NCBI RefSeq assembly: GCF_001310085.1
Contig: NZ_CP012643.1
Span: 2,449,001 to 2,513,000 of the forward strand
Source: Rufibacter tibetensis
Lineage (GTDB): Bacteria > Bacteroidota > Bacteroidia > Cytophagales > Hymenobacteraceae
Direction: 5' to 3'
Length of the DNA: 64,000 nt
The stretch's first letter is position 1. The number at the start of each line of letters is the position of its first letter. A program made the translations under genes and the position numbers. The notes beneath the pieces were generated by a model. The model did no database searches. It was not told the DNA's origin and worked only from the letters and a program-made list of their open reading frames with translations. Positions 57,776-63,594 of this stretch are shown here, piece by piece.

Positions 57776-60178
57776 ATGAAGAGAATCATTAAAAAGGTGG
57801 CGGTGTTAGGCTCGGGCATTATGGGCTCGCGCATTGCCTGCCACTTTGCTAACATTGGCGTGCAGGTGCTGTTATTAGACATGGTGCCGCGTGAGTTGCT
57901 GCACGAGGAAGAAGCCAAAGGCCTTACCTTGGAGAATAAACTGGTGCGCAACCGCATAGTGAATACCGCGCTGCAAACGGCCATTAATTCTAACCCAGCC
58001 CCCCTTTACCGTAAAACTGATGCCCGGCTCATTCAGACCGGGAACTTTGATGATGACCTACCCTCCATTGCTACCTGCGACTGGACCATTGAGGTAGTGG
58101 TAGAAAACCTGAAAATAAAGCAAAGTGTGTTTAGCCAAGTGGAGCAGTTCCGGAAGCCGGGCACTTTAATCACCTCCAACACATCAGGTATTCCCATCCA
58201 CTTAATGCTGGAGGGCCGTTCCGATGATTTCAGAAAACACTTTTGCGGAACTCACTTCTTCAACCCTCCACGTTATTTGAAGCTGCTGGAGATCATCCCC
58301 ACAGAGGAGACTGATCCGGAAGTCATCAACTTCCTCTTAAACTACGGCGACCTGTACCTGGGCAAAACTACAGTGCTAGCCAAAGACACCCCCGCGTTCA
58401 TCGCGAACCGGGTAGGCATTTATGGCATCATGCAGGTGCTGCACGTCATGGAGAAACTGGGCCTGAACGTGGACGAGGTAGACCGCTTAACAGGCCCGGT
58501 AGTAGGTCGGCCTAAATCTGCCACCTTCCGGACTTCAGATGTGGTGGGTCTAGATACACTGGCCAAAGTAGCACAAGGCTTATACCACACCGTTGAAACG
58601 GATGAAAAGCGTGACCTGTTCCAACTGCCTGCCTACATTCAGCAGATGTTGGAAAGAAACTGGCTGGGTGATAAAACGCGGCAAGGCTTCTACAAGAAAA
58701 CCAAGACTCCTGAAGGGGCCACCGAGATCCTGACGCTGGACCTGAATACCATGGAATACGGACCTAAGCAGAAAGTTAGGTTCCAGAGCATGGAAACGCT
58801 CAAGCCTATTGAAGACCTGCGCAAGCGCCTCAAAGCGTTTAGCCAAGCCCAAGACAAAGCCGGCGATTTCTTTAGAGAGACTTCGTACGGCCTATTTCAA
58901 TATGTTACCAACCGCATTCCTGAAATCTCCGACGAACTTTACCGCATTGATGATGCCATGCGTGCTGGATTCGGTTGGGAAATCGGGCCATTTGAAACTT
59001 GGGATGCCCTTGGGGTACGAGAAACCGTTTCAGCCATGGAAGCCGCCGGTTACAAACCAGCCGAATGGATTTACGAGATGCTGGAAACGGGCCATGAAAC
59101 CTTCTATCGCAGCCAGAACCACCAGCGCCAGTACTATGACCTGCTCACCAAAGATTACCGCCAGATTCCGGGGACCGAACATTTCGTGCTGCTGGATGTA
59201 CTGCGCGGCACCAACGTTGTCTGGAAAAATGCCGGTTGCTCCATAATTGACTTAGGCGACGGTATCCTGAACGTGGAGTTTCACTCCAAAATGAACGCCA
59301 TGGGCAGTGAGATCATCCAAGGGCTGAACAAAGGCATTGATCTAGCCGAGCAGAGCTTCAGAGGCGTGGTAGTGGGCAATGAGGCCGCTAACTTTTCTGC
59401 CGGAGCGAACCTAGGCTTGGTGTTCATGTACGCCCTGGACCAAGACTACGATGAGCTCAACCTCATGATCAAGCAGTTCCAGAACACCATGATGCGTATG
59501 CGTTACTCGGCCATTCCGGTAGTGGCGGCGCCGCACGGCTTGACACTAGGTGGTGGTTGTGAGCTGTGCCTACATGCCGACAGAGTACAGGCAGCCGCCG
59601 AGTCTTACATTGGCTTGGTAGAATTTGGTGTAGGCTTGATCCCGGGCGGTGGCGGAACAAAAGAAATGACCTTGCGCACCTCAGCCGCCTACGAAGAAGG
59701 TGATACCGAATACAACTCGCTCCGGAACGTGTTCATGACCATTGGTACGGCTAAAGTCTCCACCTCAGCCGCCGAAGCGTACGACCTTGGCTTTATGCGC
59801 CACGGCGACGGCATCACCCTCAACACCAACCGTCAGCTCGCCGAAGCCAAAGCCGAAACCATTCTCCTCGCAGAAGCCGGGTACACTAGACCTACGCCAA
59901 AGACCAACATCAAGGTGCAAGGCCGCGGTGGTTTAGGGATGTTCATCACAGGTGCCCACGCCATGCACGCGGCCGGCTTCATCTCAGAACATGACCGTAA
60001 AATTTCTGAGAAGCTGGCTTACGTGATGTGCGGCGGAGACCTGTCCATGCCGTCTGAGGTATCAGAGCAATACCTGTTGGATCTAGAGCGCGAAGCCTTC
60101 CTGAGTCTATGCGGTGAGCGCAAGACCTTGGAACGCATCAAGAGCATCTTGACCACCGGTAAGCCCCTGCGGAATTAG
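57776..60178 (+). CDS. Bifunctional 3-hydroxyacyl-CoA dehydrogenase / enoyl-CoA hydratase
   Basis: 800 residues, cytoplasmic, central to beta-oxidation. The NAD-binding motif VAVLGSGIMGSRIA is at the N-terminus, with the dehydrogenase halves through about 480 (catalytic HFFNPPR segment). The crotonase domain is C-terminal (about 490-800) with FSAGANLGL and the oxyanion region GLTLGGGCELCL, then ESYIGLVEFGVGLIPGGGGT. This order is the reverse of FadB/FadJ. It is second in the cluster after marR, and thiolase and acyl-CoA dehydrogenase follow. Confidence 0.93.
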   Translation: MKRIIKKVAVLGSGIMGSRIACHFANIGVQVLLLDMVPRELLHEEEAKGLTLENKLVRNRIVNTALQTAINSNPAPLYRKTDARLIQTGNFDDDLPSIATCDWTIEVVVENLKIKQSVFSQVEQFRKPGTLITSNTSGIPIHLMLEGRSDDFRKHFCGTHFFNPPRYLKLLEIIPTEETDPEVINFLLNYGDLYLGKTTVLAKDTPAFIANRVGIYGIMQVLHVMEKLGLNVDEVDRLTGPVVGRPKSATFRTSDVVGLDTLAKVAQGLYHTVETDEKRDLFQLPAYIQQMLERNWLGDKTRQGFYKKTKTPEGATEILTLDLNTMEYGPKQKVRFQSMETLKPIEDLRKRLKAFSQAQDKAGDFFRETSYGLFQYVTNRIPEISDELYRIDDAMRAGFGWEIGPFETWDALGVRETVSAMEAAGYKPAEWIYEMLETGHETFYRSQNHQRQYYDLLTKDYRQIPGTEHFVLLDVLRGTNVVWKNAGCSIIDLGDGILNVEFHSKMNAMGSEIIQGLNKGIDLAEQSFRGVVVGNEAANFSAGANLGLVFMYALDQDYDELNLMIKQFQNTMMRMRYSAIPVVAAPHGLTLGGGCELCLHADRVQAAAESYIGLVEFGVGLIPGGGGTKEMTLRTSAAYEEGDTEYNSLRNVFMTIGTAKVSTSAAEAYDLGFMRHGDGITLNTNRQLAEAKAETILLAEAGYTRPTPKTNIKVQGRGGLGMFITGAHAMHAAGFISEHDRKISEKLAYVMCGGDLSMPSEVSEQYLLDLEREAFLSLCGERKTLERIKSILTTGKPLRN

Positions 60179-60202
60179 GGAAGGGGAACCGCCTCTTCTT
60201 GA

Positions 60203-60235
60203 TTTGTCATCCTGAAAGGACCTTGTGGGCGAACT
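60203..60235. repeat. Left 33-bp terminal inverted repeat of GIY-YIG cassette
   Basis: Begins TTTGTCATCCTGAAAGGACC. Matches the reverse complement of 60539-60571 at 31 of 33 positions. It contains a small internal hairpin, TCCT-GAA-AGGA. Confidence 0.92.
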
Positions 60236-60250
60236 AGACAAGCAGAAGCT

Positions 60251-60534
60251 ATGAAAGACCATAACTACTTTGTCTACGTCATCTGTAATCCCGGCAAAAC
60301 TGTTCTTTATACAGGAGTGACAAATGATCTGGAAGTGCGGTTGCAGCAGCACAAAGACAACCGGGGAAAGCCGGAAAGTATTGCTGCTACAAGTTGTTGT
60401 ATTATGAACGTTATATAAATGTGGAGCAGGCTATAGACAGAGAAAAGGAAATTAAGCTGATGGGACGGGAAGCAAAAGAAACGTTGATAAAATCAATGAA
60501 CCCGAAGATGAGTTTTCTGTACATAGCCAGCTAA
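60251..60534 (+). pseudogene. GIY-YIG endonuclease, frameshifted
   Basis: From the ATG at 60251 the frame reads MKDHNYFVYVICNPGKTVLY then TGVTNDLEVRLQQHKDNRGKPES. This has the VYV and YTG halves of the GIY-YIG motif and the conserved Arg and His. After about residue 46 the frame is lost and ends at ATAA. A different frame from about 60385 continues with YKLLYYERYINVEQAIDREK and ends TLIKSMNPKMSFLYIAS, the family's C-terminal half with its catalytic Glu. A short deletion near 60375-60390, perhaps between TGCT repeats, would explain it. This is a UvrC/URI-type single-domain protein, now probably inactive. Confidence 0.85.
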
Positions 60535-60538
60535 TTGC

Positions 60539-60571
60539 AGTTCGCCCACAAGGTTCTTTCAGGATGGCAAA
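60539..60571. repeat. Right 33-bp terminal inverted repeat of GIY-YIG cassette
   Basis: Begins AGTTCGCCCACAAGGTTCTT, five bases after the nuclease stop. See the left repeat for the match. Confidence 0.92.
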
Positions 60572-60612
60572 GTGGGAGATTTTATTAAAACACCTCAAAA
60601 ACAGAAAAGAAA

Positions 60613-61791
60613 ATGCAAACTGCCTATATAGTTGCCGGATTCAGAACCGCCGTGGGAAAAGCGCCCCGCGGAGTATTTCGGTTTACCCGGCCCGATGATT
60701 TAGCCGCCGATGTGATCAAACATCTGCTGGCCTCGGTGCCGCAATTAGACCCCGCCCGAGTTGACGACCTTCTGGTAGGAAACGCAGTGCCCGAGGCGGA
60801 GCAAGGCCTGCAGATGGGACGCATGATTTCTCTCTTGTCCTTGCCCATCAACGTGCCCGGCGCCATCATGAACCGTTACTGCGGCTCAGGGATAGAGACC
60901 ATCGCTACCGCATCTTTCAAGATACAGTCTGGCATGGCCGATTGTATCATTGCCGGAGGCGCGGAGTCCATGAGTTTGGTGCCTGTGGTGGGCTGGAAAA
61001 CCTCCCCTAACTACAAAATCGCGAAAGAGCACCCAGAGTATTACCTGAGCATGGGTTTGACTGCCGAAGCAGTGGCGCATGATTTCAAAGTAAGCCGTGA
61101 AGACCAGGATGCCTTTGCCTATGCTTCGCACCAGAAAGCCATCCGGGCCATTGAGGAAGGCCGGTTCAGAGACCAGATTGTGCCTATCAACGTGGAAGAG
61201 ACTTTCCTGGATGAGAACGGTAAAAAGAAAACCCGCTCCTACGTGGTAGACACGGATGAAGGTCCGCGTGCTGATACGTCTTTGGAGAAACTGGCCAAAC
61301 TTCGGCCGGTGTTTGCTGCCAACGGAAGTGTAACTGCCGGTAACTCTTCCCAAACTTCAGACGGAGCAGCCTTCGTGATTGTGATGAGTGAGCGCATGGT
61401 GAAAGAGCTGAACATTGAGCCGATTGCTCGTCTGGTGTCTTACGCTGCCGAGGGAGTGGATCCGCGCATCATGGGTATGGGGCCAGTAAAAGCTATTCCG
61501 CGCGCGTTGAAAAATGCCGGCATGAATCTGCAGGACATCGACATCATTGAAATGAACGAAGCATTCGCGTCACAGTCCATTGCGGTGATGCGAGAACTGG
61601 GCATTGATCCAGACAAACTGAACCCGAACGGAGGCGCCATCGCCTTAGGTCACCCACTAGGCTGTACCGGGGCCAAATTGAGCGTGCAGCTCTTCAGTGA
61701 TTTGCGTCGCGAAAACAAGAAATACGGCATGGTGACGGCCTGCGTAGGCGGTGGACAGGGTGTGGCAGGGATTTACGAATTTTTAAAATAA
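60613..61791 (+). CDS. Acetyl-CoA C-acyltransferase (thiolase)
   Basis: 392 residues. It performs the last, thiolytic step of beta-oxidation, releasing acetyl-CoA. Active-site Cys90 lies in NRYCGSGIETI. GHPLGCTGAK carries the catalytic His and CVGGGQGVAG the second Cys, all intact. Length is standard. It follows the dehydrogenase/hydratase gene across the GIY-YIG cassette and is 15 bp before the acyl-CoA dehydrogenase gene. Confidence 0.96.
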   Translation: MQTAYIVAGFRTAVGKAPRGVFRFTRPDDLAADVIKHLLASVPQLDPARVDDLLVGNAVPEAEQGLQMGRMISLLSLPINVPGAIMNRYCGSGIETIATASFKIQSGMADCIIAGGAESMSLVPVVGWKTSPNYKIAKEHPEYYLSMGLTAEAVAHDFKVSREDQDAFAYASHQKAIRAIEEGRFRDQIVPINVEETFLDENGKKKTRSYVVDTDEGPRADTSLEKLAKLRPVFAANGSVTAGNSSQTSDGAAFVIVMSERMVKELNIEPIARLVSYAAEGVDPRIMGMGPVKAIPRALKNAGMNLQDIDIIEMNEAFASQSIAVMRELGIDPDKLNPNGGAIALGHPLGCTGAKLSVQLFSDLRRENKKYGMVTACVGGGQGVAGIYEFLK

Positions 61792-61806
61792 ACAGCATCT
61801 AAATAT

Positions 61807-63594
61807 ATGGAAACTGTAAGCAGAACATTAAGGGGCGGGGAGTTCATTATCAAGGAGACCAACGCCCAGGACGTTTTCATTCCGGAGGATTTCTCTGAGG
61901 AACAGCGCATGATGGCTGAAACAGCCCAGCAGTTTGTGCAGGCAGAGGTGCAGCCACTGGTAGAGCGCATGGACAACCACGAGGAAGGCTTATTAGAAGA
62001 CCTGATGAAAAAAGCGGGGGATTTGGGCTTGTTCGGGGTGGCTATTCCAGAAGAATATGGCGGGCTGAACATGGACTTCAACTCGTCTTTACTTGTAACC
62101 GAATCTGTTGGGCCTGGACACTCGTTCCCCGTAGCTTTTGCAGCCCATACGGGAATTGGAACCTTGCCTATTCTGTACTTCGGTACTGAGGAGCAAAAAG
62201 CTAAATACATCCCTAAACTAACTACCGGCGAGTGGACCTCATCATACTGTTTAACAGAGCCAGGTTCCGGGTCTGATGCGTTGGCCGCCAAAACCAAAGC
62301 TATTCTAGACGTAGAGGGCGATAACTATATCCTGAACGGCCAGAAAATGTGGATCACCAATGCTGGCTTCGCCGATGTATTCATTGTGTTTGCGCAGGTA
62401 GACGGTGACAAGTTCACCGGTTTCATTGTAGATAAAGGCGCCGAAGGATTAAGCCTGGGCAATGAAGAGCACAAAATGGGCATTAAAGGATCTTCCACCC
62501 GCCAGGTGTTCTTCACTGATTGCAAAGTGCCGAAGGAAAACGTGCTGGGTGAGATTGGTAAAGGCCATTTGATTGCCTTCAACATCCTTAACATCGGTCG
62601 GATTAAACTGGCTGCGGCTTGTCTGGGAGCTTGTAAGAGCGTAGCCGATCTATCCGTGAAATATGCCAATGAACGCATCCAGTTCAAAATCCCGATCTCC
62701 AAATTCGGAGCGATCCGGCATAAATTGGCCGAGCAAGCCATCCGCATTTTTGCGGTAGAATCAGCACTGTACCGTTGCGGTCACGACATCCACAACAAAG
62801 AGCAGGAACTGCTGGCCGCTGGGAAAAGCTACAACGAAGCTGTATTGGAAGCCGCCCGCGAGTTTGCCGTGGAGGCTGCCATCCTAAAAGTGGACAGCTC
62901 TGAGGTGCTGGACTACGTGGTGGACGAAGGCGTGCAGATCTACGGCGGGTATGGCTTCTCCGCTGATTACCCCATGGACCGTGCCTACCGCGATGCCCGC
63001 ATCAACCGCATCTTTGAAGGGACCAACGAGATTAACCGCATGCTCATCGTGGACATGGTCTTGAAGAAAGCCATGAAAGGCGAACTGGATTTGATGGGCC
63101 CTGCCGCCGCTGTGCAGCAGGAATTAATGGAAATCCCTGATTTCGGGGATGAAGACACCAGCCTGTTTGCTTACGAGAAGAAAGCTGTTGGCAAATTCAA
63201 GAAAGCCGTGTTGCTGACTGCCGGAACCGCCGTGCAGAAGTTCATGATGACCCTGGACAAAGAGCAGGAAATCTTGATGTACATCGCTGACATGGCCATC
63301 CAAACCTACATTGCGGAGTCTACTTTGCTGCGGGTTGAGAAACTGGTAAGCCGCAACGGCGAAGAAGCCACTTCCCGTCAACTGGATATGATGCGCGTGG
63401 TGATCAATGATGCCGCTGACCGTATCAACAAAGCTGGGAAGGAAGCTAACGCGGCCATGACCGAGCCGGGTGACGAGCAGAAACTACTGCTGATTGGCTT
63501 GAAACGCTTTACCAAACTGGAGCCGTTCAACACCAAAGAAGCGCGTCGTCGGGTTGCTGCGGAGCTGATCAAAGCAAACGAGTACGTGTATTAA
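61807..63594 (+). CDS. Acyl-CoA dehydrogenase
   Basis: 595 residues, the longer type with a C-terminal extension beyond the standard 380. It is the FAD enzyme of the first beta-oxidation step. Motifs include GVAIPEEYGGLNMDF, YCLTEPGSGSDA, the MWITNAGFADVFIVFAQV strand, and the C-terminal QIYGGYGFSADYPMDRAYRD and GTNEINRMLI of the catalytic domain. The extra 170-residue helical tail resembles that of VLCAD/ACAD9-like enzymes, suggesting long-chain substrates. Last gene of the cluster, followed by a terminator. Confidence 0.95.
   Translation: METVSRTLRGGEFIIKETNAQDVFIPEDFSEEQRMMAETAQQFVQAEVQPLVERMDNHEEGLLEDLMKKAGDLGLFGVAIPEEYGGLNMDFNSSLLVTESVGPGHSFPVAFAAHTGIGTLPILYFGTEEQKAKYIPKLTTGEWTSSYCLTEPGSGSDALAAKTKAILDVEGDNYILNGQKMWITNAGFADVFIVFAQVDGDKFTGFIVDKGAEGLSLGNEEHKMGIKGSSTRQVFFTDCKVPKENVLGEIGKGHLIAFNILNIGRIKLAAACLGACKSVADLSVKYANERIQFKIPISKFGAIRHKLAEQAIRIFAVESALYRCGHDIHNKEQELLAAGKSYNEAVLEAAREFAVEAAILKVDSSEVLDYVVDEGVQIYGGYGFSADYPMDRAYRDARINRIFEGTNEINRMLIVDMVLKKAMKGELDLMGPAAAVQQELMEIPDFGDEDTSLFAYEKKAVGKFKKAVLLTAGTAVQKFMMTLDKEQEILMYIADMAIQTYIAESTLLRVEKLVSRNGEEATSRQLDMMRVVINDAADRINKAGKEANAAMTEPGDEQKLLLIGLKRFTKLEPFNTKEARRRVAAELIKANEYVY

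Follow-up and report, generated by a model that had tools for sequence, protein, structure and literature searches.

The question raised by this locus of Rufibacter tibetensis is whether a short nuclease gene enclosed by inverted repeats is a mobile unit, and which enzyme would move it. The stretch of DNA analysed, called the window here, is 64,000 nucleotides long, and the features of the locus are collected in Table 1. The arms are 33 nt long and 31/33 (94%) complementary at a spacing of 303 nt, and they were the sole inverted repeat reported by the tool within 59800-61000. Between them only GIY-YIG pieces are enclosed and no transposase was found. When an intact relative was aligned to the window nuclease by tblastn, it fell into 2 pieces in 2 frames; the gene is therefore broken and the window copy is a relic. 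The initial annotation had described a compact unit without a transposase, with arms alike at 31 of 33 positions around a frameshifted nuclease frame, placed between co-directional genes, and this description was borne out. The first 96 residues of the thiolase had a match in 16/16 genus genomes, and after this gene follows a third co-directional ORF (61807-63594, 595 aa), which we take to be an acyl-CoA dehydrogenase. The left arm can form a short and imperfect hairpin, ATCCT-GAA-AGGAC, in which 4 stem positions pair; the folding of a single 33-nt arm was no better than that of shuffles (z 0.28).

Table 1. The nuclease cassette and its neighbours, in positions of the window
Feature	Positions	Strand	Remarks
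Upstream neighbour, fused 3-hydroxyacyl-CoA dehydrogenase / enoyl-CoA hydratase	57776..60178	+	
Left TGTC-tagged REP, A-type	60203..60235	+	tag TGTC 60205-60208, tail CTTGTGGGCGAACT
Short leader from left REP to start codon	60228..60250	+	
GIY-YIG frame, first part of nuclease gene	60251..60418	+	PF01541, E 1.4e-8
C-terminal part of nuclease gene, different frame	60394..60534	+	stop 4 nt before right arm
Right TGTC-type REP, inverted	60539..60571	-	tag is TGCC
Downstream neighbour, thiolase	60613..61791	+	

The distribution of the arms was determined by searching genomes. When 471 bases of the locus were searched at the DNA level against the own genome, 58 matches were obtained, namely the unit itself and 57 arm-region pieces, and a repeat private to the window site was therefore rejected. 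A 26-nt arm pattern, allowing <=2 mismatches, was present in 42 copies in the own genome and in 17-125 copies per genome across 16 genus genomes. The family's 21 further genomes had 0-33 copies each, and the 22 genomes from the order's remaining families had none. As a control the pattern was read backwards, which gave 0 copies in every genome counted; since the own genome contains the pattern 42 times and its reverse 0 times, a chance inverted repeat was rejected.

The arrangement of the copies was analysed in the regions around the own-genome matches at <=6 mismatches, with the window's two arms excluded. The 59 copies formed 23 inverted pairs and 13 singles. In 22/23 pairs the start spacing was 61-65 and the span 87-91 nt, and the remaining pair has 78. 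The TGTC tags of the pairs face outward, and on reading, the inner ends resemble those of the nuclease cassette. The stem changes in a paired manner, with ATCCT/AGGAT in 16 copies and ATCTT/AAGAT in 16, and all five stem positions pair in 36/59 copies. Folding of 3 REPINs as single-stranded DNA gave z values of -4.2, -5.8 and -4.8. Only 3/59 REPs lie inside mechanically called ORFs of at least 100 aa. The repeats of this genome are thus inverted doublets of fixed spacing, dispersed and mostly extragenic, as REPINs are. At one place (L083 668-757, own genome C1 1030167) a TGTC REPIN appeared nested in the kind of inverted repeat that frames some Y1_Tnp genes.

In the genus, 16 nuclease cassettes were examined. 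Each has the layout REP, short leader, start codon, gene, stop, few bases and inverted REP; the leader of the window resembles those of the 16 cassettes, and the REPINs resemble it in part. Twelve cassettes are open and 4 are broken (the window, G009, G014 and one of the two in G011). The gap between the dehydrogenase and the thiolase contains a nuclease cassette in 8/16 genus genomes, that is in our genome and 7/15 others. In the other 8 it is 87-149 bp long without a nuclease, and reading of these gaps revealed no trace of a REP. Four further cassettes follow the thiolase (G007, G011, G012, G015) and four are located elsewhere (G001, G006, G007, G014). The initial annotation had advised looking for the repeat with and without the nuclease, for intact nuclease copies and for framed copies at non-orthologous sites, and all of these were found. 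Its idea of a recent arrival was rejected, since the same gap is occupied in other members of the genus as well. It had also named the case that would speak against mobility, the unit being at the same site in all relatives with no copies elsewhere; half of the genomes lack the cassette in this gap, and other sites exist.

Two types of nuclease were distinguished. The A-type is accompanied by the REP tail CTTGTGGGC in 8/9 cassettes, one G011 cassette being mixed, and the B-type by a CTCGGTGGC-like REP tail in 7/7 cassettes. G001, G007 and G012 each contain one nuclease of either type, every one with its own REP tail. The dehydrogenase/thiolase gap is occupied by the A-type in some species and by the B-type in others.

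Traces of movement were looked for by comparing sites. The genus offered no usable exact empty sites, as the matched stretches share only 71-87% identity and the gaps diverge further, and no clean target-site duplication was found in the genus comparison, where relatives are strongly diverged between genes. One REPIN site is occupied in several species of the genus and almost cleanly missing in G003 (38 vs 129 bp), which may be a loss. In Sinorhizobium meliloti Ak57 a full cassette lies beside a deleted one that consists of the 3' gene end between inverted REPs (L122 2668-2829). The equivalent gap of Sinorhizobium sp. K101 lacks a nuclease and contains degenerate REPs; in that strain the nuclease is found at another place, beside CCTC-type repeats. 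The Ak57/K101 and G003 cases fit a unit that is gained and lost as a whole. No excision product, movement or cleavage was seen in the genome comparisons.

The gap after the thiolase (window 61792-61806) has a small gene in seven congeners (L062, L063, L066, L067, L069, L070, L074). It lies between inverted repeats of another sequence with an ungapped score of 11-21, and the one that was scanned is PF05635, 23S_rRNA_IVP. This unit is perhaps a second type of cassette.

The nuclease protein was characterised from its intact relatives. Its first 55 residues had a match in 35/59 genomes searched, our own included, with 1-5 nuclease matches per genome. The intact proteins of the genus consist of 98 aa in a single domain, and the residues Y9, Y20, G22, R30, H34, E69 and N88 are invariant in 20 aligned intact proteins. 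An intact relative scored 55.8 bits with PF01541, which places the protein in the GIY-YIG superfamily, the window copy being frame-broken. The AlphaFold model had a pLDDT of 92.6; the closest solved fold was UPF0213 BH0048, followed by Slx1-Slx4, and the solved structures matched were 1zg2 and 1ywl, with 1zg2 as the best fold. In sequence and predicted fold the nuclease is closest to UPF0213. The dN/dS ratio was 0.026-0.058 in 8/12 within-clade pairs, with dS saturated in the other 4 and high in all, which indicates purifying selection on the nuclease.

With the prokaryotic Slx1-like GIY-YIG proteins and UPF0213 (Dunin-Horkawicz et al. 2006, PMC1564403) the nuclease shares the single-domain architecture of about 98 aa. 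The description in the available part of that paper does not mention framing by repeats, which is present here, and its Slx1 cluster is without the C-terminal Asn. In our proteins an Asn near the C-terminus, a candidate for the equivalent residue, is invariant in both alignments (A1 20/20, A2 13/13). This Asn may set the group apart from the Slx1-like proteins as defined in 2006.

Whether nuclease genes are framed beyond the genus was determined with a fixed threshold, namely inverted repeats with a score of at least 18 that lie within 300 bp of the ORF on each side. In the related genomes 30 loci were found, of which 2 were left out because they were cut by contig ends. Framing was observed at 21/28 loci including the window's own (20/27 others), and at 0/9 control ORFs. 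For the wider survey, one-genome-per-species contigs were scanned with one alphaproteobacterial protein, and of 578 confirmed matches the best 80 were taken. Five of the 80 loci were dropped for incomplete flanks. Among the remaining 75, 56 nuclease genes were framed, compared with 7/494 other ORFs of the same loci (Fisher p 7e-53), a statistic that like all others here ignores kinship, with Bradyrhizobium over-represented among the loci. Of the framed control ORFs 5/7 came from REP-bearing contigs of two genomes (L188, L190), and the small control ORFs of these loci were framed in 0/72 cases. The 19/75 nuclease genes unframed at this score are scattered on the nuclease tree (19 changes vs 19.4 when shuffled), which is compatible with sporadic decay. 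The framed loci among the best 80 of 578 were labelled Pseudomonadota, Myxococcota, Nitrospirota, Armatimonadota, Thermodesulfobacteriota, Bacteroidota and candidate phyla, where single assignments are possibly wrong because many of the loci are MAGs. The nuclease tree (L135-L214) mixes phyla with few forks resolved, which suggests transfer between distant bacteria.

The framing arms were then compared with known repeats. At 63 loci with a score of at least 16, 47 had the tag at the outer end, 10 had it reversed, and in 6 it was unrecognised. A (C/T/G)GTC tag with an immediate stem of at least 5 bp was present in 77/126 arms, compared with a mean of 9.8 and a maximum of 19 for shuffled arms, a control that is slightly lenient since real arms could pick among tags. 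The 77 fitting arms had an 8-9 bp stem in 70 cases, a loop of 4-5 in 65 and a GGTC tag in 5, and they comprised 25 distinct stems. Judged by sequence, the arms of the wider survey are the CGTC REP in the available part of Di Nocera et al. 2013 (PMC3733652), with the same (C/T)GTC tag, AT-starting stem, inverted dimers and dispersal, and with the 8-9 bp stems and 4-5 nt loops found in most of the fitting arms. In the Alphaproteobacteria the repeats framing the nuclease are classical CGTC REPs on this comparison. The taxa named there include S. meliloti, A. lipoferum, N. aromaticivorans and Neisseriae, in which framed nucleases were found here. The window REP has a stem of about 5 bp, a loop of 3 nt and the tail CTTGTGGGC, outside the 8-9 bp stem, 4-5 loop and CCA-like tail of that superfamily as far as the available text describes it. 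The shorter stem, the loop and the deviating tail make the window repeat a divergent TGTC REP.

Among plasmids, 32 records contained a match, and 12 loci were hand-picked from them. At 8/12 loci the gene was flanked by strong inverted (C/T)GTC REPs. The arms matched at 31/31 in N. aromaticivorans, 31/31 in Sphingobium and 33/33 in Rhizobium CIAT894, and the other strongly framed loci were from A. lipoferum, S. meliloti, Shinella, Neorhizobium and N. gonorrhoeae. Two of them deviate, N. gonorrhoeae and A. lipoferum (where the nuclease gene lies between sufB and sufC), in that the gene is located between whole REPINs or inward tags and not within one REPIN. The Spirosoma locus had a weak frame (15/17), and no bracketing pair was found at the Planktothrix, R. 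tumorigenes and Photobacterium loci, though similar repeats are nearby. Taken together, our results show that CGTC/TGTC REPINs and a subfamily of GIY-YIG nucleases are strongly and broadly associated.

The pairing of REP type and nuclease type was analysed by correlating their distances. The nuclease distance correlated with the REP distance (Mantel r 0.405, p 1e-4, n=58 loci at a score of at least 18), and a GC correction changed nothing. Since the linkage of gene and frame alone could yield this correlation, unlinked REP copies were examined. At 14/55 loci the cognate REP type occurred more than 1 kb from the gene, compared with a permuted mean of 2.3 (maximum 8) and 0/55 for shuffled arms; part of the covariation is common descent, because gene and frame are linked. 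REP types were also counted in 16 hand-picked whole genomes. Ectorhizobium carried 55 copies of the CTCGGG-type REP, and each of the 15 remaining genomes carried 0-3. The CCCGC type was abundant in Sphingomonas IC081 (37 copies), Rhodanobacter (16), a betaproteobacterium (21), Lysobacter (52) and Desulfosarcina (60), all five of which carry a nuclease frame of the CCCGC type. The other 11 genomes had 0-16 copies, namely 16 in Kaistia, which has a variant frame, and 0-7 in the remaining ten. By reading, the pair spacing is nearly fixed; it is 44-50 in Ectorhizobium, and in Sphingomonas IC081 it is 102-114. The latter genome also has another REP pair with the 352-nt spacing of its nuclease cassette (G060:C1 2288051-2288429), perhaps a second cassette copy.

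Within the genus, exact copies of the A-pattern had a median of 26 in the 9 genomes where a nuclease of either type is intact vs 9 in the 7 without (p 0.023; p 0.034 when the cassettes' own arms were removed), and the exact share of the REP copies was also higher (p 0.016). An intact A-type nuclease alone had no effect on the exact A-pattern copies (median 20 vs 19, p 0.40), and copies at <=2 mismatches did not differ with nuclease intactness in the genus genomes (p 0.27). The B-pattern counts gave a borderline result (p 0.057), and G009, where no B nuclease was found, contains 43 copies of the B-pattern. REPs, 17-69 per genome, are also present in four genus genomes that gave no nuclease match. 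The excess of exact copies with an intact nuclease is suggestive only. Taken together, REP subtype tracks nuclease subtype in these sequence comparisons.

Since the arms are one pair of a dispersed REP family, a REPIN with a dedicated enzyme fits the data better than a lone transposon. Based on the cognate pattern and the analogy to RAYT, it is probable that CGTC/TGTC REPINs are spread by a dedicated enzyme of their own, the small Slx1-like GIY-YIG nuclease. The initial annotation had named the nuclease as a possible mobilising enzyme, and the results support this possibility. The unit would be a "nuclease REPtron", an Slx1-like GIY-YIG gene inside a REPIN between inverted (C/T)GTC-tagged hairpin repeats, and the empty REPINs of near-fixed length (87-91 nt here) would be its non-autonomous relatives. 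The framed gene is PF01541 and not an HUH tyrosine transposase, and lies outside the strict RAYT/REPtron definition. We infer that both REPs would fold into hairpins on single-stranded or extruded DNA, where the nuclease would bind the tagged hairpin of its own subtype and nick beside it. The freed or broken end might then be repaired by copying, which would occasionally place a REPIN or a cassette at a new intergenic site. No DNA-joining activity is known for GIY-YIG nucleases, and insertion would therefore require the help of the host.

Other enzymes or other roles of the nuclease were weighed against this proposal. If HUH (Y1_Tnp) enzymes of the RAYT kind moved the TGTC REPs, the nuclease would be a passenger. 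Y1_Tnp matches indeed occur in 15/16 genus genomes (45 in total), but of the 30 loci examined (L276-L305) 15 are framed, at a score of at least 18, by several repeat types of their own with a sequence other than the TGTC REP, and a TGTC REP(IN) lies within 300 bp of 1/30. G007 has no Y1_Tnp match, yet it has 63 TGTC REPs with the top exact share (28/63). The idea that a RAYT moves the TGTC REPs was therefore rejected as very improbable; since the HUH genes, where framed, have other repeats, two REP-enzyme systems with separate repeats appear to coexist in the genus. In a homing process the nuclease would cut a bare REP or REPIN and recombination would copy the cassette in, so that the gene alone moves and only into existing REPs. 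GIY-YIG homing enzymes exist, according to the available part of PMC1564403, the cassette resembles a REPIN with a gene inside, and K101 has degenerate REPs where Ak57 has the cassette. We consider homing improbable, because the unoccupied gaps of the genus are devoid of REPs by reading and the spread of the REPINs themselves would be left unexplained. The homing endonucleases are also a nuclease superfamily tied to selfish DNA, but the 98 aa of our protein leave no space for an extra DNA-binding domain, and here dispersed hairpins frame the gene.

A function for the host is the least improbable of these explanations, and still an unlikely one. A domesticated repair enzyme would trim REP cruciforms, and the REPs would spread otherwise and frame the gene as terminators or mRNA stabilisers. 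The Slx1-like fold, the UPF0213 relatives and the strong purifying selection are in agreement with this, as are the annotation of E. coli YhbQ as a DNA damage response nuclease and the persistence of REPs in nuclease-free genomes. However, the other small ORFs of the surveyed loci are unframed, REP subtype follows nuclease subtype even with two subtypes per genome, the nuclease gene is often absent or broken, and yhbQ, a very distant relative, is unframed (score 8).

The REPINs with a GIY-YIG nuclease resemble the REPIN-RAYT system, as far as it is described in the available part of Bertels and Rainey 2011 (PMC3116915), in the inverted REP doublets of fixed spacing, the many non-autonomous copies, the few enzyme genes per genome and the match of enzyme subtype to REP subtype. 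They differ in the enzyme, which is a GIY-YIG nuclease instead of an IS200/IS605-type HUH tyrosine transposase, in the tag, which is (C/T)GTC instead of GTAG, and in the gene being usually inside the doublet. A published link between a GIY-YIG protein and REP repeats was not found among the matches listed (titles and abstract openings; CC-licensed PMC, no bioRxiv). We lean slightly towards the wider view that enzymes mobilising REPINs evolved a second time, independently, as the single-domain GIY-YIG nucleases of many phyla. These would cut tagged hairpins and use host repair, a mobility without transposase, recombinase or reverse transcriptase.

In the available part of Di Nocera et al. 2013 (PMC3733652), CGTC REPs are described without associated transposase genes, CGTC REPtrons may have vanished early and the way in which these REPs spread is left open; in contrast, here the REPs frame a GIY-YIG gene. 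Our data suggest that CGTC REPtrons exist in some of the bacteria named there and that their enzyme belongs to a different superfamily. How the REPs spread can thereby be tested using a protein of 98 residues and a hairpin of 30 nt. The finding could assign a role to the large unassigned group of "GIY-YIG nuclease family" proteins, in which 7997/7999 scored candidates were relatives at E <= 1e-8, the framing being known for the surveyed loci. If true, these units would be a convergent counterpart of the RAYT-REPIN systems.
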